Below are positions 4,622-33,332 of a stretch of 64,000 nucleotides of DNA, piece by piece. Position numbers and translations under genes: made by a program. Source of the stretch: SAR202 cluster bacterium bin16 (lineage in GTDB: Bacteria > Chloroflexota > Dehalococcoidia > Lucifugimonadales > Australimonadaceae); the NCBI GenBank assembly GCA_002238425.1, contig MPMJ01000001.1, positions 1-64,000 on the forward strand, in the 5' to 3' direction. The notes below the pieces were generated by a model that saw only the letters and a program-made list of their open reading frames with translations, had not been told where the DNA came from and ran no database searches. Each line of letters opens with the position of its first letter. Positions within the stretch are counted from its first letter, which is position 1.

Positions 4622-5656
4622 CTACGGGTAGATGGCCAGTTGTTCCAGTCCCGTCGCCTCCGGCAGCCCGAACATGAGGTTCATGTTCTGCACCGCCTGT
4701 CCCGCCGCGCCCTTGACGAGATTGTCCAGCGCGGAGAAGACGACGAGCTTTCCCGTATGCCTGTCCACCGTAGGATAAACCAGGCAGTCGTTGTTGCCCC
4801 AGGTCTGCTTCGTCTGGGGCGCCTTGTCGGTCACTTTCACGAACGGCTCGTCGCGGTAGTACTCGCGATAGAGCTCCGTCACCGAGGCAGATGCTTCCTC
4901 CACCGAGCCGAACACGCCGTCCACGAAGTCGGCGTAGATGGTGTCGAGGATGCCGCGCGTCATCGGGATGAGGTGCGGCTGGAAGAGCACCTTCGGTGCG
5001 TAGCCGTCCTTGATACGGCGCAACTCCTGCGTGATCTCCGGCAGGTGCCTGTGCCCGCCCACCGAATACGCGAACACGTTCTCGTTGACCTCAGAGAAGT
5101 GCGTCGTCATGCTCAAGCCGCGGCCCGCGCCAGACACGCCGGATTTGCAATCGACCACAATCTGCTCGCCGATGAGGCCTTTCTCGACCACCGGCGCGAG
5201 CGCCAGCAACGCGGCAGTGGGGTAGCAGCCTGGATTCGCGACGAGTTGCGCCGAGGAGATGCCGTCCCTGTCCAGCTCCGTGAGGCCGTAGACGGACGTC
5301 TCCAGCAGGTCGGGTGCGGGGTGCTCTGCGCCGTACCAGCGCGCGTACTCGTCGGGGTCGTGCAGACGGAAGTCGGCAGAGATGTCGACGACCTTCACGC
5401 CGTCCCGCGCGAACGGGACGCACGCCTCAGCAGAGGCAACCTGCGGCAGCGCCGAGAACACGACGTCCACGCTGCGCGTGATCTCCGGCTCGATGGTGAT
5501 GTCCATGCGCGACAGGTGCGGCAGCGCGTCGCCCAGCTCCTCGCCGGCCTGGCTGCGCCCCGTGACGCTGACGACCTCCGCCTCAGGATGGCGGTACAGG
5601 ATGCGCGCAAGCTCGATGCCCGCATACCCCGTCACATTGATGATGCCTATCTTCAT
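4622..5656 (-). CDS. argC: N-acetyl-gamma-glutamyl-phosphate reductase
   Basis: Catalyses the NADPH-dependent reduction of N-acetyl-glutamyl-5-phosphate to the semialdehyde, the third step of arginine biosynthesis. The 344-aa length is typical. The N-terminal nucleotide-binding loop reads INVTGYAG, a variant of the usual GATGYTG. The catalytic cysteine is C144 in NPGCYPTA. Conserved stretches include DISADFRL and VYGL. No other arginine genes are adjacent, so the pathway is scattered. A perfect TATAAT on the minus strand at 5744-5749, inside the end of the neighbouring oxidoreductase gene, may give it its own promoter. Confidence 0.95.
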   Translation of the reverse strand: MKIGIINVTGYAGIELARILYRHPEAEVVSVTGRSQAGEELGDALPHLSRMDITIEPEITRSVDVVFSALPQVASAEACVPFARDGVKVVDISADFRLHDPDEYARWYGAEHPAPDLLETSVYGLTELDRDGISSAQLVANPGCYPTAALLALAPVVEKGLIGEQIVVDCKSGVSGAGRGLSMTTHFSEVNENVFAYSVGGHRHLPEITQELRRIKDGYAPKVLFQPHLIPMTRGILDTIYADFVDGVFGSVEEASASVTELYREYYRDEPFVKVTDKAPQTKQTWGNNDCLVYPTVDRHTGKLVVFSALDNLVKGAAGQAVQNMNLMFGLPEATGLEQLAIYP

Positions 5657-5692
5657 ATACCTTCACCCTGTCTCGTCATTCCCTCCCTGTAG

Positions 5693-5713
5693 GGGCGCCC
5701 CTTGTGGGTGCCC
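5693..5713. repeat. Small inverted repeat, REP-like
   Basis: GGGCGCCC-cttgt-GGGTGCCC forms a hairpin with one G-T pair on the plus strand. It lies in the leader between argC and the LLM oxidoreductase gene. The surrounding words (cgtcattccc, ctgtaggggcg) resemble interspersed extragenic repeats elsewhere in the window. It could be a REP-type element or a weak attenuator for argC. Confidence 0.35.
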
Positions 5714-5743
5714 TTCCAAGGCAAGCAACTATTCTCGCAGTCC

Positions 5744-5749
5744 ATTATA
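5744..5749 (-). promoter_or_regulatory. Candidate -10 element for argC
   Basis: TATAAT on the minus strand, about 90 bases upstream of the argC start. No good -35 is found at 16-18 bases, so the call rests on the perfect -10 alone. Confidence 0.3.
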
Positions 5750-5759
5750 GAGGAGAAGC

Positions 5760-6701
5760 CTACGCCCCCAGCGGAACGAGCTTCTTGTGGAACGGCTGCA
5801 CGATGGCCTCAGCCTGCAGCCGCATCTGCTCCAGCATCTCGTCAGCACCGCAGGCGGGGTTGAACACGAACTTGGACGCGCCCGCGTCGATGTACTCGCG
5901 CAGCCGTGCCATGATCTGGTCCGGCGTGCCGAGCAGGTTCAGTTGCTCCGGCGACACGTCGGAACGGCGCCGCAGCAGATAGCGCTCCTTGATGTGCTCC
6001 GGCACGGTGCCGCTCTCCACGAGGTAGCTGTTGATCTGCAGGCCGAAATGGTCGTGCTCTACCTCGCGTCCCACCTCCGCAGCGTACTCCTGGATGCGCG
6101 CGATGCCTGCCGCGACCTCCTCAGGCGTGATCTGCGTTGGCAGCCAGCCGTCGCCCAGCCTGCCCGTGCGGCGAAGCCCGGCCTCAGAGCGGCTGCCCAT
6201 CCAAATCGGCAGGTTCGCCTGCTTCGGCCGCACGCCTATCGTTGCGTCCGTCAGTTTGATGAATTCGCTCTCGTAGGTGACGCGCTCCTCCGTCCACAAA
6301 CGGCGCATGATGTGGATGGCCTCGTCGAGCCGCTTGCCGCGGTCGCGCTTGCGGACGCCCATCGCCTCGTACTCCGCGGGCGACTCCTGTCCGACACCGA
6401 CGCCTAGCACGAGGCGTCCGTTGGAGAGCAGGTCTATCGTGGCGAGCTCGCGCGCCGCGGTGACCGGGCTGCGCATAGACATCAGCAGCACGCCGGTGCC
6501 GAACTTCAGCTTCTCCGAACGTCCGGTGACGATGGCCATGCCCGCGATGGGGTCCATCCTCCACGCCGGGCCGACGATGCGGTCCGAGAACCAGATGGAG
6601 TCCCAGTCCAGCTCCTCGGCGGCGTCGATGTAGCGCAGGAACGTCTCGCGCCCCTCACGCGCCATCACTGAGGCCCCGGAAAGACCTATCTTCACCGACA
6701 T
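5760..6701 (-). CDS. LLM-class flavin/F420-dependent oxidoreductase
   Basis: A 313-aa luciferase-like monooxygenase-superfamily protein with a TIM-barrel fold that binds FMN or F420. Motifs include DWDSIWFSDRIVGPAWRMDP near the N terminus, KLKFGTGVLL, the conserved LSNGRLVLGVGVGQ, RGKRLDEAIHIMRRLW and LPIWMGSRSEAGLRRTGRLGDG. The start at 6701 is chosen over the longer track ORF because GGAGG lies just upstream and family members begin here. The substrate cannot be told. This family is strongly expanded in SAR202-like Chloroflexota, where it is linked to breakdown of recalcitrant organic matter. The gene has a strong promoter and a long structured leader ending in a terminator-like hairpin, so attenuation is possible. 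Confidence 0.88.
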   Translation of the reverse strand: MSVKIGLSGASVMAREGRETFLRYIDAAEELDWDSIWFSDRIVGPAWRMDPIAGMAIVTGRSEKLKFGTGVLLMSMRSPVTAARELATIDLLSNGRLVLGVGVGQESPAEYEAMGVRKRDRGKRLDEAIHIMRRLWTEERVTYESEFIKLTDATIGVRPKQANLPIWMGSRSEAGLRRTGRLGDGWLPTQITPEEVAAGIARIQEYAAEVGREVEHDHFGLQINSYLVESGTVPEHIKERYLLRRRSDVSPEQLNLLGTPDQIMARLREYIDAGASKFVFNPACGADEMLEQMRLQAEAIVQPFHKKLVPLGA

Positions 6702-21708: not shown

Positions 21709-22743
21709 CTACAGCCCCAGCGTGATAGGCGCGAACAACTCCTCGATATTGGCCCGATTCTTCGTCAGCCCCTGCTCGTGCGAGTAGTCGATGAGCGTAT
21801 TGAGCATCGCCTCGTTCGCCTTCACCCCATAGGGGTACGGGTCGTTCCCGAAAACCGCCCGCGTCTGCCGCATGTAGTCGTTGCCGAAGACGAGGTCCGT
21901 CGGCATCCGCGCGGACAGCGTCCGCACCGACAGGTCCTTCGCCTGGACGAACGCGTTGTACAGGTTCAGCGCCACCCAGGGGTACTCGCGGTAGACGTCG
22001 CCCCGGATCACGTAGGTGTGGTTGGCGGGGATGAACCCGTGCTCCGTGAAGAATCGCGACCCCTCCGCGATGCGGTCCGGGAACATCGGCTTGATCTTGC
22101 TCAGGTCACCCTGGCCCTGGATGCGCCACGAGCGGTCGACGAGGTTCGGCCCCTGCCCTCCCGGCTCGTTGAGAGCAGCCGGGTTGACCGACGCGATGTC
22201 CAACTCGTTGGCCAGCAGCATCGACGCAAGGCTCTTGTCCGGTGGGACGCGCTGGAAAGAGATGCCCTCCGGAGGCTCGAAACCGGTCGCGCCGCCGTGG
22301 CTCATCTCTTCCGTCCGCTCCATGTACCAGTGCACCTTGTACTGCGACACGCCGTGGTCGTGGTCCATGATGCCGCGCATCCACAGCGCCGCCGTCTGCT
22401 GGTACTCCCCGACCCCGATGCGCTTGCCGACCACGTCGGACGGCTTCTCGATGCCGGAGTCCGTGTTGTAGTGCAGCCCCATGTGCATGAAGCTGCGGTG
22501 CGGGAAGACAGGTATCGCGATCCAGTCGGCTCCCTGCTCCTTCGAGATGAGGTACGACGAGATGGACAGCTCGTGGAACTCGAACTCGTGGAAGTTCAGG
22601 TGCCGCCACGCGCCCTCGGACATCCCCCCGAACGTATGGATGAGCTCGATCCCCTCGGGCTGGATGCGCCCGTCGATCAACGGGGCGACGCGGTCGCTGC
22701 TCGACGACATGAAACTGAGCCGGAGCTTCGGTTTGCTGACCAT
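21709..22743 (-). CDS. 4,5-dihydroxyphthalate decarboxylase-like protein
   Basis: A 344-aa protein of the periplasmic-binding-protein-like (NMT1/SBP) superfamily most often annotated as 4,5-dihydroxyphthalate decarboxylase. Typical stretches are PLIDGRIQPEGIELIHTFGG, FEFHELSISSYLISK, WIAIPVFPHRSFMHMG, VVGKRIGVGEYQQTAALWMRG and a C-terminal NRANIEELFAP. There is no signal peptide, so it is cytoplasmic. The enzyme removes CO2 from a dihydroxylated aromatic acid in phthalate degradation, but family members may act on other substrates. GGAGGAG precedes the ATG. It follows an amidohydrolase gene by 30 bases, suggesting a two-gene catabolic operon. Confidence 0.85.
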   Translation of the reverse strand: MVSKPKLRLSFMSSSSDRVAPLIDGRIQPEGIELIHTFGGMSEGAWRHLNFHEFEFHELSISSYLISKEQGADWIAIPVFPHRSFMHMGLHYNTDSGIEKPSDVVGKRIGVGEYQQTAALWMRGIMDHDHGVSQYKVHWYMERTEEMSHGGATGFEPPEGISFQRVPPDKSLASMLLANELDIASVNPAALNEPGGQGPNLVDRSWRIQGQGDLSKIKPMFPDRIAEGSRFFTEHGFIPANHTYVIRGDVYREYPWVALNLYNAFVQAKDLSVRTLSARMPTDLVFGNDYMRQTRAVFGNDPYPYGVKANEAMLNTLIDYSHEQGLTKNRANIEELFAPITLGL

Positions 22744-23875: not shown

Positions 23876-25459
23876 CTACCACCAACGCGCGGGGGCGACG
23901 TTCACGTTCCGTTCTTCCTGACGTTCTTGATGAGGTCCCCACTCGTAAGCAGAGGGGGTAGATGACGCCTTGTCATCTATATCGAGCAGGCCACGGCCTT
24001 GTTCCGGGGGTAAGGCGTCAAGATGCGCGCTGAATCGCGTGTTGTGTTGCGGAAGGGACCAGAGCCAGTAGCCAGAACCTCTAGAGTCGTTCCTGGGGTA
24101 GACGCGGGTTGTGGCGACATTGCACAGGGCGCGGGCCCGGCGGAGACGACGCTCGGAGATGCCGAGTTGGGCGGCGCGGCGTGTGACTTCGGCGGCGGGT
24201 CGGGGTCCTTCCGAGAGGATTTCGGCGAGGAAACGGCAGACGTGGGCGGTCACGTCCGGGAGTTGGGGTCCGGGGGTCTTCGCGGCGTCGATGGCGAGGA
24301 GGCGTTCATGGGAGATGGGCTCACGCCATGCGATAGGCGGGGCGTCGTGGAAATTGAAGGGGATGGGCGGGAGGGTGTCGTGCATGGGCGGGCTGAGGGG
24401 AACGAGGAAGCGAGAGCGATCCTCGCCGACGAGGGCGATGGTGTAGACGGTGCCAGCCATGCCGAGGCGGGACTGCATGTGCCGGGCAGCGGCGGCGAGG
24501 GAGTGGGCGGGGTTGTGCATGAGGGCGAGGACGGCTGCGCCGGTGCGCGCCGCGAGGGCGTTCAGCAGCCCCGCGACGTGGGGAACCCTGGCGTTGTGAA
24601 CGAGGGCGAGGTGCTCGATCTGGTCGACGACGAGGAGGGCGGCGCTCCCACGGGTGATGAGGTTGGCAAGGCGGTTCATGACGACGGGGAGCGAGGGGCC
24701 TCGCACGGGTACCTGGGGTCTGGGCGGCGGGGGCGGAGGCGCGTAGGGGTCGATCATGGTGGGAGGCTCGCTGTAGCGGGCGTGCTCGCGGACTTCCTGA
24801 GTGTGGTCTTCGAGGCTGTCGACGTGGTCGTCCTCCGAGAAGTCGGCGAGGTGGACCGGAGAGAGGACGTCTGCGTGGAAGACGAGGCTGAGGTCCGCGC
24901 CGAGGGTCTTGAGGCGGGGGAGGAGCGACGCGCGGGGGTTCTTGAGGGGCGCGGCAATGACGACGGGGGCGCGGACGAAGGGGACGCCGGGCTGGTCGGG
25001 CGTGTCCGCGCCGAGGGAGACGCGGGTGGCGACGTCGAGCGCGACGGCGGTCTTGCCGGAGGCAGGGTAGCCGGCGACGAGGGTGAGTTCGCCCATGGGG
25101 ATGCGGTTGGGCCAGAGCCAGTCGGCAGGCTGAGGGATGAGGAACTCATATGAGGTGAGCCCGCCTTCGACGGCGCCGGCGGCGGCGTGGAGCGCGGTCT
25201 CCGTCGGCAGCCCGCGCCGGGCAAGGGCTTCTTCGATATCAGCCGAGGGACAGCCGGAGGTGCAGGAGAAGGAGAGGAAACCGACGTCCGGGTCGTGGGT
25301 GACGCGGAGCGTCGGGACGTAGGGGCTGGGGTGGACGGGGCAGTGGAAGCGGTCGGTTGGGACGGGCGTGCACCCGCAATCCGGGTCACCGCATCGGAGG
25401 GCTCGTCCGATGGCGTCGAGGTAGGTGCGCTGTTGGGGGGTGAGATGGATGTTTGTCAT
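23876..25459 (-). CDS. RepA-like AAA ATPase (phage/plasmid helicase type)
   Basis: A 527-aa protein. The N terminus has a Cys-rich segment (CGDPDCGCT, FHCPVH, SCTSGCP) like primase-type zinc modules. A RecA-like AAA_25 ATPase follows, with Walker A GYPASGKTAVAL (about residue 133) and Walker B AALLVVDQIEHL. A proline-rich linker (PYAPPPPPPRPQ) interrupts the core. The C-terminal winged helix reads EVTRRAAQLGISERRLRRA and YWLWSLP. Such proteins serve replication of plasmids and prophages. No replication origin, integrase or capsid gene is nearby, so it is an isolated, probably mobile-derived gene. The start ATG 25459 lacks a clear ribosome binding site. Confidence 0.75.
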   Translation of the reverse strand: MTNIHLTPQQRTYLDAIGRALRCGDPDCGCTPVPTDRFHCPVHPSPYVPTLRVTHDPDVGFLSFSCTSGCPSADIEEALARRGLPTETALHAAAGAVEGGLTSYEFLIPQPADWLWPNRIPMGELTLVAGYPASGKTAVALDVATRVSLGADTPDQPGVPFVRAPVVIAAPLKNPRASLLPRLKTLGADLSLVFHADVLSPVHLADFSEDDHVDSLEDHTQEVREHARYSEPPTMIDPYAPPPPPPRPQVPVRGPSLPVVMNRLANLITRGSAALLVVDQIEHLALVHNARVPHVAGLLNALAARTGAAVLALMHNPAHSLAAAARHMQSRLGMAGTVYTIALVGEDRSRFLVPLSPPMHDTLPPIPFNFHDAPPIAWREPISHERLLAIDAAKTPGPQLPDVTAHVCRFLAEILSEGPRPAAEVTRRAAQLGISERRLRRARALCNVATTRVYPRNDSRGSGYWLWSLPQHNTRFSAHLDALPPEQGRGLLDIDDKASSTPSAYEWGPHQERQEERNVNVAPARWW

Positions 25460-26025: not shown

Positions 26026-27132
26026 ATGGCAAACCTCGAGATCGTGATCGACGGCGACGGCCACATCTTCGAAGACGGAGAAGGGCTGAGGAAGCACCTG
26101 AGGAAGCCGCTGGCGGATGCCAACATCGCCAAACTGTTCAGCATCTTCCCCCAGCTGGACCACCTCCACCACAGCGTCGTGCGCAACCCGGAGGACTCGT
26201 TCGGCATCAGCAACGGCGTCTTCAAGGACCCGGGTGTCGAGGGCTGGGGCGAGTTCATGGACAGGGCCGGCGTCGAGTCCGCCGTGCTCTACCCGACCTC
26301 CGGCCTCTCCTACGGCAAGATCATCGACCTGGACTTCGCCATTCAGGCATGCCAGGCGTACAACGACTGGGTCACCGACACGTATTCCTATAAGGACAGC
26401 CGCCTGCACCCGGTGGCGCTCATCCCCATGCAGGAGCCGGACGCCGCGGTCGAGGAGTTGCGCCGGGCCGTGGTTGACCTCGGCATGTGCGGAGCGATGC
26501 TCCCCTCCACCGGGCTGATGACGCACCTTGGAGCCAAGACCTACTGGCCGGTATACGCGGAGGCAGAGCGCCTCGGTGTTCCGCTGGCGGTGCACGGCGG
26601 CGCGCACCATGATCTGGGCATGAACACGATGAACGTGTTCGCGGCCACGCACGCCATCGGCCACCCCGTCGGCATCATGATCGGTCTCGCGGGCATGCTC
26701 TTCAACGGCGTGTTCGAGCGCTTCCCCAGCCTCAAGGTCGGTTTCCTGGAGGGCGGGGTTGGCTGGTTCCTGATGGCGCTGGAGCGGTTCAACGGCTCCT
26801 ACGAAGCGTTCACCCCGTTCGACCCGCGCAGCGAACTCCTGCAACTGCCGGAGGGCATGAACGTGCGCGAATACCTCGTCAGCCTCTGCCGCCAGGGGCG
26901 GATACGCGTCGGCGTCGAGGGCGACGAGCCCGCGCTCGCCTACGCCGTGCACGTCGCCGGGCCGGAAGCATTCATCTTCTCGTCCGACTTCCCGCACGAG
27001 GTCAACCTCGGCAGCATCCGGCACGAGATAGAGGAGTTGATCGAGATCGAAGAGCTCTCTCCGGAGGAGAAGGAAGCAATCCTCTGGAAGAACTCGCTGG
27101 ACTTCTACGGACTCAGCTCCGCGGCGGCGTAA
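26026..27132 (+). CDS. Amidohydrolase-2 family metal-dependent hydrolase
   Basis: A 368-aa paralog of the gene at 22774. Visible motifs are VIDGDGHIFED at the N terminus, LAVHGGAHHDLGMN, FLEGGVGWFLMALER and FIFSSDFPHEVN near the C terminus, with the metal-binding His and Asp. The ATG at 26026 has GGAGGA five bases upstream, whereas the longer ORF would include repeat sequence. It lies 56 bases before the TRAP transporter genes on the same strand, so its substrate may be the imported organic acid or a product of it. Confidence 0.88.
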   Translation: MANLEIVIDGDGHIFEDGEGLRKHLRKPLADANIAKLFSIFPQLDHLHHSVVRNPEDSFGISNGVFKDPGVEGWGEFMDRAGVESAVLYPTSGLSYGKIIDLDFAIQACQAYNDWVTDTYSYKDSRLHPVALIPMQEPDAAVEELRRAVVDLGMCGAMLPSTGLMTHLGAKTYWPVYAEAERLGVPLAVHGGAHHDLGMNTMNVFAATHAIGHPVGIMIGLAGMLFNGVFERFPSLKVGFLEGGVGWFLMALERFNGSYEAFTPFDPRSELLQLPEGMNVREYLVSLCRQGRIRVGVEGDEPALAYAVHVAGPEAFIFSSDFPHEVNLGSIRHEIEELIEIEELSPEEKEAILWKNSLDFYGLSSAAA

Positions 27133-27188: not shown

Positions 27189-29258
27189 ATGAGAGTCAGC
27201 AGGTACCTATTTGCAATAGCACTGATCGCCGCTCTCGGCATCTTTGCGAGCGCATGCGGCGACGACGAACCGGAACCGACGGCTACACCGGTCCCGGCAG
27301 CCGCCGAGCCGACGCCGACAGCGGCGATGATGGAAGAGGAGGACGAGCCGGTCACGATCGACCTGATCGACGCGTTCCCCGAAGTGCTCGACGTTGCCCG
27401 GGCCACGGCCTTCTTCATCGAACAGGTCACCGAGATCTCCGGGGGCTCCGTCACCATCAACCGCGTTGGTGGCCCCGAGGTCACCCACTCGCTGGAGCAG
27501 TTCGCTCCGACGCGCGACGGCGTGTATGACGCCATCGCGACCGTGGGCGCCTACCACACCGACCACACCAAGCTCGGCCTCGGTGAGAACGTCGCGGCCA
27601 ACTACACCCGCATCGGGGACAACTACACCCCGCGCGTGGACTGTGGCCTCTACACCGCGCTGGAAGACATCTACGCGCCGCTCGGCATCCAGTACGTCGG
27701 CTCCATCGCCGGTGGCTGGGGCGCCCGGCTGTGGACGATAGACCCGGTCCGTGACGTGTCCGACCTTGACGGCGTGCACCTGCGGGCGGCAACCATCTAC
27801 CAGCCGTTCCTGCACGACTACGGTGCAACGACGGCCCCGCTGCAGTTCTCCGAGATCTACCCCGCGCTCGAGAAGGGCGTCATTCAGGGTCTCTACTGGG
27901 GCGGCGCTGGCGCGCTGGCCGGCAAGTGGAACGAGGTCGTCAAGTACCAGTACCCCGACTCGCTTGCGGGCGGCGGTGGCGTCGGCATCATGTTCAACCA
28001 GGAATCATGGGACGCGATGTCCGAGAACCAGCAGCAGGCAGTCAGGGACGCGATCGCGAAGGCCTCCGAGTTCTACACCGAGTTCATCGATGGTGTTGAG
28101 CGGGAGGAAGTCGCGGTACTCGCGGAACAAGGCATCGAGAGCATCCCGTGGCCTGACGACCTCAAGAATCGCTGGACCAACGACCACTACGACAAGATCA
28201 TCGAAGACTTCATCATCGCGCCGGACCCGGTGCTCGGTCAGCCCTTGGCCGACGCCATCCGCTGCGTGAACGACATCGTGCTGCCTGACCGCGAAGTCGT
28301 GGACGACCCCGTCACGATCGACCTGATCGACGCGTTCCCGACCGTGCTGGACGTTGCCAGGTCCACGGCCTTCTTCATCGAAGAGGTCAACCGGATCTCC
28401 AACGGCTCGGTCACGATCAACCGCGTTGGCGGCCCCGAGGTCACCCACTCCCTGGAGCAGTTCGCTCCGACACGCGACGGCGTGTACGACGCTATCGCGA
28501 CCGTGGGCGCCTACCACACCGACCACACCAAGCTCGGCCTCGGCGAGAACGTCGCGGCCAACTACACCCGCGTCGCGGACAACCACACGCCGCGCGTGGA
28601 GTGCGGCATGTACGATGCTCTGGAAGCCATCTATGAGCCGCTCGGCATCCAGTACGTCGGCTCTATCGCCGGTGGCTGGGGCGCCCGGCTGTGGACGGTA
28701 GACCCGATCCGTGAGATCAGCGACCTGGATGGTGTGCACCTGCGAGCGGCAACCATCTACCAGCCGTTCCTGCACGCGTACGGCGCAACGACCGCCCCGC
28801 TGCAGTTCTCCGAGATCTACCCCGCGCTCGAGAAGGGCGTCATCCAGGGTCTCTACTGGGGCGGCGCTGGCGCGCTGGCCGGTAAGTGGAACGAGGTCGT
28901 CAAGTACCAGTACCCCGACTCGCTCGCGGGCGGCGGCGGCATCGGCATCATGTTCAACCAGGAATCATGGGACGCGATGTCTCCTCGCCAGCAGGAGGCC
29001 GTGCGCGCCGCGACCAAGACTGCCTCGAAGTTCTACACCGAGTTCATCGACGAGGTTGAGCGGGAGGAAGTCGCGGTACTCGAGGAACAAGGCATCGAGA
29101 AGATCGAGTGGTCGGACGAGATGACGGCAACCTTCACCAACGACCACTACAACAAGATCATCGAAGACTTCATCATCGCGCCGGACCCGGTGCTCGGTCA
29201 GCCCCTGGCCGACGCCATCCGCTGCGTGAACGACATCGTGCTGCCTGACCGGCAGTAG
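27189..29258 (+). CDS. TRAP transporter binding protein with two fused DctP-like domains
   Basis: A 689-aa extracytoplasmic solute receptor, about twice the usual length. The lipoprotein signal ends at FASAC, and a short Thr/Pro linker follows. Two complete binding domains then follow in the same frame: unit 1 from residue 55 and unit 2 from residue 375, period exactly 320 residues (960 bp). Both contain GGPEVTHSLEQFAPTRDGVY, SIAGGWGARLW, ATIYQPFLH and IQGLYWGGAGALAGKWNEVV. The units differ at many positions (EISGGSV versus RISNGSV), so this is not an assembly echo. Only one signal peptide exists. DctQ and DctM genes follow directly. The ligand is probably a carboxylate. Confidence 0.93.
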   Translation: MRVSRYLFAIALIAALGIFASACGDDEPEPTATPVPAAAEPTPTAAMMEEEDEPVTIDLIDAFPEVLDVARATAFFIEQVTEISGGSVTINRVGGPEVTHSLEQFAPTRDGVYDAIATVGAYHTDHTKLGLGENVAANYTRIGDNYTPRVDCGLYTALEDIYAPLGIQYVGSIAGGWGARLWTIDPVRDVSDLDGVHLRAATIYQPFLHDYGATTAPLQFSEIYPALEKGVIQGLYWGGAGALAGKWNEVVKYQYPDSLAGGGGVGIMFNQESWDAMSENQQQAVRDAIAKASEFYTEFIDGVEREEVAVLAEQGIESIPWPDDLKNRWTNDHYDKIIEDFIIAPDPVLGQPLADAIRCVNDIVLPDREVVDDPVTIDLIDAFPTVLDVARSTAFFIEEVNRISNGSVTINRVGGPEVTHSLEQFAPTRDGVYDAIATVGAYHTDHTKLGLGENVAANYTRVADNHTPRVECGMYDALEAIYEPLGIQYVGSIAGGWGARLWTVDPIREISDLDGVHLRAATIYQPFLHAYGATTAPLQFSEIYPALEKGVIQGLYWGGAGALAGKWNEVVKYQYPDSLAGGGGIGIMFNQESWDAMSPRQQEAVRAATKTASKFYTEFIDEVEREEVAVLEEQGIEKIEWSDEMTATFTNDHYNKIIEDFIIAPDPVLGQPLADAIRCVNDIVLPDRQ
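27351..29258 (+). repeat. 960-bp in-frame tandem duplication
   Basis: Unit 1 starts at 27351 and unit 2 at 28311, both with gtcacgatcgacctgatcga. The two units align without gaps and differ by scattered substitutions throughout. The junction reads LPDREVVDDP; the final unit ends LPDRQ-stop. Confidence 0.9.
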
Positions 29259-29396
29259 AACGGATCGTGTATGCGGGCCGGGCGTCCGGGAGGAGACCGG
29301 ATGGGGAGGGCGGCCGGGCCTCCGGGGGGGGGCCCCGGCCCGCAGCGGTTCACCCTATCCCACTCCGGCGGGTGGGAGGTAACAGGCGAACGGACG
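29259..29396. other. GC-rich spacer between TRAP genes
   Basis: This spacer includes the tract CCTCCGGGGGGGGGCCCC with nine G (29324-29332). The track ORF starting at 29271 reads through it, but DctQ-like similarity begins only at 29397. The tract is another suspicious homopolymer. The inverted repeat GGGCC/GGCCC could form an intercistronic hairpin that tunes receptor versus permease expression. Confidence 0.4.
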
Positions 29397-30029
29397 ATGG
29401 CAGAAGCGACTGACACCCAGCAAGACAAACCGGAAGGGTCGAAGCATCCCCTTGCGCGCCTGGTGGAGACGTTCCTGGACATCACAGAGCAGCAGCGGGC
29501 GGCCCGCTCCAGGAACCCACTGGTCACCCAGATATTCGACTGGGTCATCGACATCTCCGCATTTGCGGGTGCGCTCATCGTGCTCTATGTGGCGCTGACC
29601 ATCGGCGCAAACGTGCTGGGACGCTACGTCTTCGAATCGCCGCTGAAGTGGGCGCTGCCCACGACGGAATACAGCCTGCTGTATCTCACCTTCCTTGCCG
29701 CGCCCATCGTTCTCCGGCGTGAAGGCCACGTGCGCATGACCGCCATCACCGAACGGCTGGGCAACACGGCGAAGCTCTGGTTCTACATCGTCGGTTCGTT
29801 CATCTCCTCGGGCGTCTGCGGCATCATGGCCTGGAAGTCGTTCGAGAAGACGTTGGAGGAGTTCCAGTCCGGCTCCATCCTCCTCTCCGGCATCGAGGTC
29901 CACCGCGCATTGGTCACGTGGGTCATCCCCTACGGGTTCATCCTGCTCGGCCTGCAGTTCCTCCGCATGGGCATCAATGCCGTGCGCCTGCGCCGCTTCA
30001 GAGAAACGGTCGAGGAGGCAGGCATCTAG
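29397..30029 (+). CDS. TRAP transporter small permease (DctQ family)
   Basis: A 210-aa membrane protein with four predicted helices. It begins MAEATDTQQDKPEGSKHPLA, followed by a cytoplasmic segment, and contains TIGANVLGRYVFESPLKWAL and PIVLRREGHVRM, the standard DctQ pattern. It links the binding protein to the large permease and is needed for Na-coupled uptake. The start at 29397 follows family similarity; the upstream extension is low-complexity. Nine bases separate it from the DctM gene. Confidence 0.9.
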   Translation: MAEATDTQQDKPEGSKHPLARLVETFLDITEQQRAARSRNPLVTQIFDWVIDISAFAGALIVLYVALTIGANVLGRYVFESPLKWALPTTEYSLLYLTFLAAPIVLRREGHVRMTAITERLGNTAKLWFYIVGSFISSGVCGIMAWKSFEKTLEEFQSGSILLSGIEVHRALVTWVIPYGFILLGLQFLRMGINAVRLRRFRETVEEAGI

Positions 30030-30038
30030 CGCCGGCTC

Positions 30039-31367
30039 ATGGAATTCTTCGGCTACGAATTCTCCTGGTGGCTGACCCTCATCATCTTCTTCGCGCTCCT
30101 GCTTGCGCTCATGTCGACGGGGATGCCGGTGGCCATGGCCTTCGCCGTGCTGAACATCGCCGGACTTCTCCTCGTCGTGGACGGACTCAAGGGCCTCGAG
30201 CTGCTGGCCGGAAGCGTCTATAGATCGGTGGCGACGTTCAATCTGCTCGCTATACCGATGTTCTTCCTGCTCGGCGAGGTGCTGTTCCAGTCCCGCGTCA
30301 TCGGATTAACGATCGACGTGATGGATAGATGGATAGGCAAGGTGCGCGCGCGCCTGCTGTTCACCTCGCTCGGCGCGGGAACGCTCCTCGCGACCCTCAG
30401 CGGCGCGGGCATGGCGGACACCGCCCTCCTCGGCACGACCCTCCACCCTGAGATGGAGAAGCGTGGGTACGACCGCCGCCTCGCGCTCGGCACCATCATG
30501 TCGTCGGGACTGCTCGCCGCCATCATCCCGCCCAGCGCGCTCGCGGTGCTGGTCGGCAGCCTGGCGGAGGTCTCCATCGCGCGGCTGCTCATCGCCGGTT
30601 TCATGCCCGGCCTGCTGATGGTTGCCGTCTACGCCGTCTACATCTGGCTCCGCGTACGGATGAACCCGAGCCTCGCGCCGCCCTACACCGGCGAGGTCAT
30701 CACCTGGCGTTACCGCTTCCTGGGCCTCGCGCAGATGAGCCCGCTCGGCATCATCGTGATTATGGTCATGGGCTTCATCCTCTTCGGCGTCACGACGCCG
30801 AGCGAGGCTGCAGCTACGGGCGCGATAGGCGCCTTCATCGTCGCGGCGCTCTACCGGCGGCTCACCTTCAAGGTGGTCAAGGACTCGCTCTACGGCACGC
30901 TCTACATCGGCGGCATGATCTTCCTCATCATCACCGGCGCGGTGGCGCTCGGCCAGCTGCTGGCATTCACCGGCGCGACGCGCGAGTTCCTCGCGTTCAT
31001 CGTCGACCTCGGCCTCTCCGCCGTCATGCTCGTCATCATCGTGCAGTTGGCGGTGCTCATCCTCGGCTTCTTCATCGACCAGCTCTCCATCATGCTGGTG
31101 GCCATCCCGGTGCTGGTGCCCATCCTGGAGCCGCTGGGCATAGACCCGGTCTGGTTCTGGGTGCTGTTCCTCATGAACATCTCCATCGGCGCGATCACTC
31201 CGCCGTTCGGCATGATGCTGTTCGCACTCAAGGGCGTCGTTCCGCAGGCGTCCATGTCCGACCTGTACCGCGCGAGCATCCCGTTCGTGATCCTGGACGC
31301 CATCGCGGTAGGCCTGGTCATAGCCTTCCCCCAGATCGCCACCTGGCTACCGAACCTGGTTACTTAG
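30039..31367 (+). CDS. TRAP transporter large permease (DctM family)
   Basis: A 442-aa permease of the ion transporter superfamily with about 12 membrane helices. Typical sequences are MSTGMPVAMAFAVLN, LLAIPMFFLLGEVLFQS, ATLSGAGMADTALLGT, GLLAAIIPPSALAVLVGS and MNISIGAITPPFGMMLFALKG. It carries the solute with Na cotransport. It is third in a receptor-DctQ-DctM operon, and two EamA genes follow six bases downstream. Confidence 0.94.
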   Translation: MEFFGYEFSWWLTLIIFFALLLALMSTGMPVAMAFAVLNIAGLLLVVDGLKGLELLAGSVYRSVATFNLLAIPMFFLLGEVLFQSRVIGLTIDVMDRWIGKVRARLLFTSLGAGTLLATLSGAGMADTALLGTTLHPEMEKRGYDRRLALGTIMSSGLLAAIIPPSALAVLVGSLAEVSIARLLIAGFMPGLLMVAVYAVYIWLRVRMNPSLAPPYTGEVITWRYRFLGLAQMSPLGIIVIMVMGFILFGVTTPSEAAATGAIGAFIVAALYRRLTFKVVKDSLYGTLYIGGMIFLIITGAVALGQLLAFTGATREFLAFIVDLGLSAVMLVIIVQLAVLILGFFIDQLSIMLVAIPVLVPILEPLGIDPVWFWVLFLMNISIGAITPPFGMMLFALKGVVPQASMSDLYRASIPFVILDAIAVGLVIAFPQIATWLPNLVT

Positions 31368-31373
31368 CGACGC

Positions 31374-32333
31374 ATGTCGCCTGAGCTCACCGGCGGGCTG
31401 ATAGCGCTCCTCGTACCCCTCTGCTTCGGCACCGGCACCGTGCTGGCGCGCGCCGGCCTCGTGCATGTCCCCGCGGGCGCAGGCAACTTCCTGTCACTCG
31501 TGACAGGCTGGGTGCTCATCGCAAGCATCACCGCGGTGCTCTACCCGGACGCCCTCTTCGGCATCACCCTGGGAACGTTCGGCTGGCTCGCGATGATCGG
31601 CGTCGTCAACTTCCCCGGCGGACGGTTCCTGAACTTCGTCAGCATCAAGCACCTCGGCATCCTCAGGGCCAACCCCATCCTTGCGATGGCGCCAATCGTC
31701 TCAGCATTCGAGGGGGTCTTCTTCCTCGACGAACAACTCAACTGGGCCATAGCCACGGGGACGCTGCTGGCGGTCATGGGCCTCATCATCGTCGTTTACG
31801 GAGAAGTATCCGCCCGCGGCGGGCGCGTCCCTCAGCCGGCGGCGCCCGCACCGGCCCCCGGGGCGAAACGTCCCGGGCTCATCGAACGCCACCCGCGCGT
31901 GTTCGGGTACATTGCGGCGGCGGGGGCTGCATGTGCCTACGGGACGGTCCCTGCATTGGGCCGCGTCGCAGTGACCGACTTCGCCATCCCACTCGTCTCC
32001 GCGACCTACACGATGCTCGTCGGCTTCATCGTCATGGGGCTGTTCTCCGCGGGGTCGATACCGGGGATGTTGCGGAACGCTCCCCGCCGCTCGCTGGTCC
32101 TGGTCGCGCTTGGGGGCGCAGCGATGTCCACGGGCGTCTCGTTCCTCTACCTGGCGTTGAGCAAGGCCCCGGTGATAGTGGTCTCGCCGGTGTTCTCGCT
32201 CACAGCGGTCGTCTCGCTCGTGCTGGCGCACATATTCCTGCAGCGGCTGGAGCGCATCACGTTTCCGCTCGTCCTCGGGACCTCCTTCGCCGTCGGGGGA
32301 GTCATCGTCGTTATCATCGGGACGCAGGTATGA
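31374..32333 (+). CDS. EamA/DMT-family transporter, copy 1
   Basis: A 319-aa membrane protein with about ten helices in two EamA repeats. It starts MSPELTGGLIALLVPLCFGT and contains AMAPIVSAFEGVFFLDEQLNWA and ALSKAPVIVVSPVFSLTAVV, where EamA proteins have the APVV...P motif. It probably exports or imports a small metabolite. It follows dctM by six bases and is very similar to the next gene, so the pair arose by tandem duplication. Confidence 0.88.
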   Translation: MSPELTGGLIALLVPLCFGTGTVLARAGLVHVPAGAGNFLSLVTGWVLIASITAVLYPDALFGITLGTFGWLAMIGVVNFPGGRFLNFVSIKHLGILRANPILAMAPIVSAFEGVFFLDEQLNWAIATGTLLAVMGLIIVVYGEVSARGGRVPQPAAPAPAPGAKRPGLIERHPRVFGYIAAAGAACAYGTVPALGRVAVTDFAIPLVSATYTMLVGFIVMGLFSAGSIPGMLRNAPRRSLVLVALGGAAMSTGVSFLYLALSKAPVIVVSPVFSLTAVVSLVLAHIFLQRLERITFPLVLGTSFAVGGVIVVIIGTQV

Positions 32334-32372
32334 GCACCCTCACCGACACCCAACCCGGTGGTCCAGTGGCGC

Positions 32373-33332
32373 ATGTCGCCTGAACTCACCGGCGCACTGA
32401 TAGCGCTCCTGGTGCCGCTCTGTTTCGGCACCGGCATGCTGCTCGCGCGCGTCGGGCTCGTACACATCCCCGCAGGCGCGGGCAACTTCGTATCGCTCAT
32501 CGTCGGCTGGGTGCTCATCGCAAGCCTGACGACAGTGCTCTATCCGGACGCGCTCTTCGGCGTCACGCTCGGTACGTTCGCCTGGCTCGCGATGATCGGC
32601 ATCATCAACTTCCCCGCCGGCCGCTTCCTGAACTTCGTCAGCATCAAGAACCTCGGGATCCTCAGGGCGAACCCTGTCCTCGCGATGGCTCCCATCATCT
32701 CCGCATTCGAGGGCGTCGTCTTCCTCGGTGAGCGCCTCAACTGGGCGATAGCAGGAGGAACGCTGCTGACCGTCACGGGCGTCATCGTCGCGGTCTACGG
32801 CGAGGTGAAGGCGCGTGGCGGCGGCGCTACGCGCCCGGCAGCTCCCGCGCCGTCCCCGGATGGCAAACGGCTGGGGCTCCTCAAACGTCGGCCACGCCTC
32901 TTCGGTTACCTCGCGGCGTTCGGAGCAGCCTGTTCATACGGCACTATCACGGTACTCGGGCGTATCGCCGTCACCGACTTCACCGTCCCGCTCGTCACCG
33001 CGACGTACACGATGCTCGTCGGCTTCATCGTCATGGGACTGTTCTCCTCGAAATCGATACCCGTCATGCTGCGGGACGCGCCGCGGCGGGCGCTCCTGTC
33101 CGTGGCGCTGGGCGGCCTGTTCATGTCCTCCGGCGTGGCGTTCCTTTACCTGGCGCTGAGCAAAGCGCCGGTGGTAGTGGTCTCACCGGTGTTCGCGCTC
33201 AACCCGGTCGTAGCACTGGTGCTGGCCCACTTCTTCCTGCAACGGCTGGAGCGCATCACGCTGCCGCTCGTCCTGGGCACCTTCTTCGCCGTCGGCGGTG
33301 TCGTCACCGTCATCATCGGGACGCAGCTGTAG
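32373..33332 (+). CDS. EamA/DMT-family transporter, copy 2
   Basis: A 319-aa tandem paralog of the preceding gene, of identical length. It has MSPELTGALIALLVPLCFGT, AMAPIISAFEGVVFLGERLNWA and ALSKAPVVVVSPVFALNPVV. The start is set at 32373 by alignment with copy 1, because both have gcatgtcgcctga at this point. DMT proteins often work as homo- or heterodimers, so the two copies may pair. The substrate is unknown. Confidence 0.88.
   Translation: MSPELTGALIALLVPLCFGTGMLLARVGLVHIPAGAGNFVSLIVGWVLIASLTTVLYPDALFGVTLGTFAWLAMIGIINFPAGRFLNFVSIKNLGILRANPVLAMAPIISAFEGVVFLGERLNWAIAGGTLLTVTGVIVAVYGEVKARGGGATRPAAPAPSPDGKRLGLLKRRPRLFGYLAAFGAACSYGTITVLGRIAVTDFTVPLVTATYTMLVGFIVMGLFSSKSIPVMLRDAPRRALLSVALGGLFMSSGVAFLYLALSKAPVVVVSPVFALNPVVALVLAHFFLQRLERITLPLVLGTFFAVGGVVTVIIGTQL

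Follow-up and report, generated by a model that had tools for sequence, protein, structure and literature searches.

The window analysed here comprises 64,000 nucleotides of the genome of SAR202 cluster bacterium bin16 (contig MPMJ01000001.1, positions 1 to 64,000). On its forward strand it carries a double DctP gene (27189–29258), a single open reading frame with an ATG start, no internal stop codons and a product of 689 amino acids. The protein matched the Pfam family PF03480 (DctP) in two stretches with a score of 167 bits (cut-off 23.4) and was also matched in two stretches by the NCBIfam model TRAP_S1, and both unit 1 and unit 2 exceeded the PF03480 cut-off when scored alone. As judged by eye, the chain starts with a hydrophobic signal peptide containing a lipobox-like FASAC motif, whose cysteine is residue 23 (27189–27257); similar leaders are found elsewhere among the proteins of this genome. 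It continues with a Thr/Pro- and acid-rich tether (amino acids 24–54; 27258–27350), DctP unit 1 (amino acids 55–369; 27351–28295), the five-residue linker VVDDP (28296–28310), delimited by comparing the junctions in three genomes, and DctP unit 2 (amino acids 375–689; 28311–29255), which has no signal peptide of its own. The limits of both units were set by Pfam and unit alignment. A repeat finder detected one direct-repeat family with a spacing of 960 bp inside the reading frame, with repeat units at amino acids 55–374 and 375–689 that start 320 codons apart and align without indel. The two units share 87% of their amino acids and 89.1% of their nucleotides. Reading frame, repeat finder and Pfam thus confirm the architecture proposed in the sequence-only reading, namely one lipoprotein-type signal, two DctP domains and a gap-free 960-bp period, together with its observation that substitutions are scattered across both units (differences at 41 of the 315 aligned residues). 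In sequence, the linker is similar to EEDEP, the acidic stretch that closes the N-terminal tether (EVVDDP vs EEEDEP). The duplicated segment therefore probably reached from the tether end almost to the stop codon, and unit 2 would have been leaderless from the outset.

Double genes encoding 690 amino acids were found in two further draft genomes of the same genus, at locus L012 (JAJEFD010000016.1, a Dehalococcoidia MAG; contig C17 of genome G002; 91% identity) and at locus L013 (VXQP01000081.1, a Chloroflexi MAG; contig C4 of genome G001; 89% identity); the window's genome is designated G000. In G005, a single-contig genome of the same genus, and in G014, from another genus of the family, the corresponding position holds a single-domain P gene (382 and 346 aa, respectively; each ~74% identical). 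Given the length and identity of the repeat and the recurrence of the architecture in two further genomes, chance is excluded and the double gene is real.

The search for other two-domain DctP proteins, as proposed in the earlier reading, returned these two further genomes of one genus in scans of the Chloroflexota. At the order level, five of 147 genomes contained a homologue at E <=1e-60, three of them double and two single. At the class level (294 genomes), frames with two DctP stretches occurred only in this genus among the 132 DctP matches listed, and no other double DctP frame was seen among 400 genomes of the phylum; the class and phylum sets overlap, and the scans at all levels were non-exhaustive, with few candidates scored per genome. 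Other long DctP frames of the phylum (G728, 715 aa; G666, 572 aa; G494, 521 aa) contained one DctP each. In a tblastn search of plasmids (110 records), both query halves fell on one DctP-sized place of ~0.7–0.9 kb among the matches listed. Non-exhaustive literature searches, which covered few subscription papers, turned up no description of a double DctP receptor. DctP-type receptors are usually monomeric proteins of 300–350 amino acids with one binding unit (PMC12344293), a chain length that is usual, not strictly defining, and that is exceeded here by two units in 689 amino acids. The protein is a PF03480 member of unusual architecture, in which the two receptor domains per chain are the new aspect and the family itself is known.

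One gene each for the permease subunits is co-encoded with the double gene directly downstream on the forward strand: DctQ, the small subunit (29271–30029; PF04290, E 7e-23, tested from 29361, which may be its start), and DctM, the large subunit (30039–31367; PF06808, E 3e-73; TIGR00786). Directly upstream, also on the forward strand, lies a gene for an Amidohydrolase-2 family enzyme (26026–27132; PF04909), which synteny shows to be conserved next to P, whether P is double or single. The order amidohydrolase, P, Q, M, EamA, EamA is common to the double-P genomes. The two tandem EamA transporter genes that follow the PQM genes (31374–32333 and 32358–33332) are 77% identical, and EamA is present in two copies in all three double-P genomes and in one copy in both single-P relatives; two duplications, of the P domain and of EamA, have arisen in one operon in the same lineage. 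Between the two amidohydrolase genes of G000 and G002 lies a 527-aa reading frame with a P-loop-like motif (23876–25459), which had no match in NCBIfam and is missing in G001, suggesting gene gain or loss there. Another contig of the window's genome (C56, locus L044) encodes a single-domain DctP (5070–6173) that is 47% identical to the double protein and lies beside a thiamine-diphosphate enzyme-like reading frame. With no DctM match on its contig, this protein may be an orphan receptor, but only 2.6 kb of sequence remain downstream before the contig end.

The closest PDB sequence matches include TakP (2hzk). Alignment to this structure mapped its ligand-contact residues (PMC1839085) Arg177, Tyr100 and Trp215 to Arg145, Tyr68 and Trp183 of the DctP units, with the arginine at unit position 145 encoded at 27783–27785 (unit 1) and 28743–28745 (unit 2) on the forward strand. 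All three residues are identical in both units of the three genomes and in both single-domain orthologues. The arginine (SiaP Arg147 / TakP Arg177) is 97% conserved in the family and acts as a carboxylate filter (PMC4646407). Since the two halves do not differ at the mapped contact positions, one shared carboxylate ligand for both units is favoured, and the earlier suggestion that the double receptor could bind two ligands is disfavoured; the mapping covers three positions, a part of the pocket, and nearby changes could alter affinity or specificity. The cation ligands of TakP, Gln156, Glu214 and Glu240, correspond to Gly, Tyr and Ala in all units in a distant pairwise alignment, and the part aligned to the DctP units does not include its swapped C-terminal helix. 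AlphaFold2 models reached a mean pLDDT of 38 for the double protein (three sequences) and 33 for one unit (six sequences) and were not used. The neighbourhood encodes a 4,5-dihydroxyphthalate decarboxylase-like protein (21709–22743; PDB 9jp7, E 8e-46; no match in Pfam or NCBIfam), two Amidohydro_2 enzymes related to aromatic-acid decarboxylases and a molybdenum hydroxylase, whose nearest relative is 4-hydroxybenzoyl-CoA reductase at a score below the cut-off of that family. On account of these neighbours, our guess is that the ligand may be an aromatic or cyclic carboxylate.

The history of the two halves was reconstructed from amino-acid and codon comparisons. An amino-acid tree grouping all unit 1s and all unit 2s was strongly preferred; trees pairing both halves of G000 were rejected (AU p <=0.002), as was an independent fusion in each species (AU test, p below 1e-60). 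As the amino-acid trees reject these alternatives, we infer that the halves were fused once, in frame, before the three species diverged. Third codon positions alone did not resolve the topology. Fixed differences between unit 1 and unit 2 were found at 15 positions across all three species, one at the linker edge and six of the other 14 within unit positions 220–275, a region that is variable among orthologues as well. The silent divergence between the halves of G000 (dS 0.21) is lower than that between orthologous units (0.32–0.47), an order that 0 to 24 of 2000 codon bootstraps reversed; for the nearby M and amidohydrolase genes, dS was 0.28–0.37. Informative residues followed orthology (22 orthologous and 2 concerted for G000 vs G002; 17 and 4 for G000 vs G001), whereas silent codons were mostly concerted (2 and 12, Fisher p 2.6e-6; 2 and 9, p 0.0016). 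Because silent sites are concerted in G000 while residues follow orthology, the economical reading is that gene conversion has acted between the halves and that selection restored or protected unit-specific residues. Within-gene dS of G001 and G002 is not lower than between-species dS, so the evidence for ongoing conversion applies only to the G000 lineage. The EamA tandem, which is duplicated only in the double-P genomes and served as a control, showed the ordinary pattern (paralogue dS 0.57–0.64, orthologue dS 0.32–0.44), unlike the G000 DctP halves. Selection on residues can be separated from conversion at silent sites, which shows that the two halves are not interchangeable. Orthologue dN/dS values are low (0.08–0.17 for unit 1 and 0.11–0.19 for unit 2), which indicates that both units are constrained by purifying selection; dN/dS between the halves (0.24–0.43) is higher. 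Domains, conservation in three species and trees together support the view that a fused and diverged double receptor has been kept for some time.

We consider it reasonably probable that the protein is a lipid-anchored, covalent tandem TRAP receptor whose domains take the same kind of carboxylate ligand and dock in alternation on one QM permease. Both domains would bind this ligand; at any one time, one of them would close on it and dock on the single Q-M permease, with the other capturing or holding a second ligand. With two domains on each anchor, twice as much ligand could be captured at the permease without an increase in lipoprotein synthesis. The TRAP QM permease is monomeric, and the published PQM model, which contains one P, has space for a second P monomer that points away, an arrangement like that of the TakP dimer (PMC9352664). 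Tandem receptor domains of the ABC importer GlnPQ are functional and largely independent (PMC8025302). Omp85 was sought in the window's genome (93%-complete) and gave no match, while control genomes were positive; the cell is apparently without an outer membrane, as judged from this one absent family at that completeness. A receptor in such a cell would have to be anchored, and a higher receptor density on each anchor, in line with the raised local concentration suggested in the earlier reading, would fit a cell without Omp85. A more specialised arrangement, in which the protein is an obligate covalent hetero-pair maintained by selection against ongoing conversion, with the distal domain capturing and the proximal domain docking, is unlikely; if true, no earlier TRAP transporter would have had a two-stage receptor built into it.

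This covalent tandem receptor is favoured over different ligands, a covalent dimer and redundancy. The strongest of the three, although itself unlikely, is that the domains differ in ligand specificity or affinity, comparable to SBD1 and SBD2 of GlnPQ, and so widen the substrate range of one permease. The tandem domains of GlnPQ do differ in specificity (PMC8025302), and the 15 fixed differences have persisted in three species despite the homogenisation of silent sites in G000; however, the mappable contacts are the same in all units and single-domain orthologues, six of the 14 in-domain differences fall in positions 220–275, where orthologues vary too, and overall identity between unit 1 and unit 2 is 81–87%. 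Somewhat less likely still is a covalent TakP-type homodimer in which the ligand is passed from the distal to the proximal domain. TakP, the Thermus lactate-binding protein and a Thermotoga protein form dimers (PMC5812351), TakP is close in sequence among solved structures, and its authors proposed hand-over through an interface channel (PMC1839085), but neither the cation ligands of TakP are conserved in the DctP units nor does its swapped helix fall within the aligned part. We regard as improbable a near-neutral tandem fusion, in which either half would suffice and conversion would merely slow the decay of the redundant one: in its favour, the double form is restricted to one genus, with three genomes, relatives have kept the single form and dN/dS is higher between halves than between orthologues, yet orthologue dN/dS is low in both halves and all three species retain an intact frame at a silent divergence of ~0.3–0.4. 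An assembly artefact or misjoined repeat is negligibly probable even though all three double-P genomes are draft assemblies and were judged at the assembly level, since the architecture recurs in two further assemblies, where each half carries differences specific to the species, and the halves differ at ~11% of bases, which could result neither from collapse nor from a single copy being falsely duplicated. With three different assemblies in agreement, the claim of a single fused gene, rather than two genes or a collapsed unit, is very unlikely to be refuted.

Compared with known systems, the double protein shares with the DctP-type proteins HiSiaP, TakP and Polaromonas 4mnc the full domain and conserved arginine of each unit, the adjacent Q and M genes and the lipoprotein-type leader, and differs from them in having two domains in one chain. 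Like TakP and other dimeric TRAP receptors it would have two DctP units working side by side, whereas TakP is a homodimer of separate chains and has cation ligands that are absent here. Gene fusion is also seen in other TRAP-like secondary transporters, such as M-P and Q-M fusions and the TAXI-GltS receptor with extra domains; M-P and Q-M fusions are listed for TRAP transporters, and some DctP receptors are dimeric (PMC12344293, PMC5812351, PMC9352664). In these fusions, however, the receptor is joined to the permease or to other domains, never to a second receptor domain. GlnPQ is similar in having two tandem receptor domains per permease, a short linker and no free periplasmic receptor, but it is ATP-driven, belongs to an unrelated fold cluster and has its domains fused to the permease (PMC8025302); these domains are of unlike specificity and joined by a 14-aa linker (PMC8025302). 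The partners of the double DctP are DctQ and DctM instead of an ABC permease and ATPase; by analogy, it may nevertheless share a tandem-receptor working mode. The doubled TRAP receptor is genuine, but as a departure from a familiar transporter family it is modest. TRAP transporters have been studied as one receptor domain meeting one QM permease, and the natural tandem with its syntenic single-domain orthologues offers a ready comparison for the effects of receptor number and tethering on a secondary transporter, a question comparable to that already addressed in the ABC importer GlnPQ.
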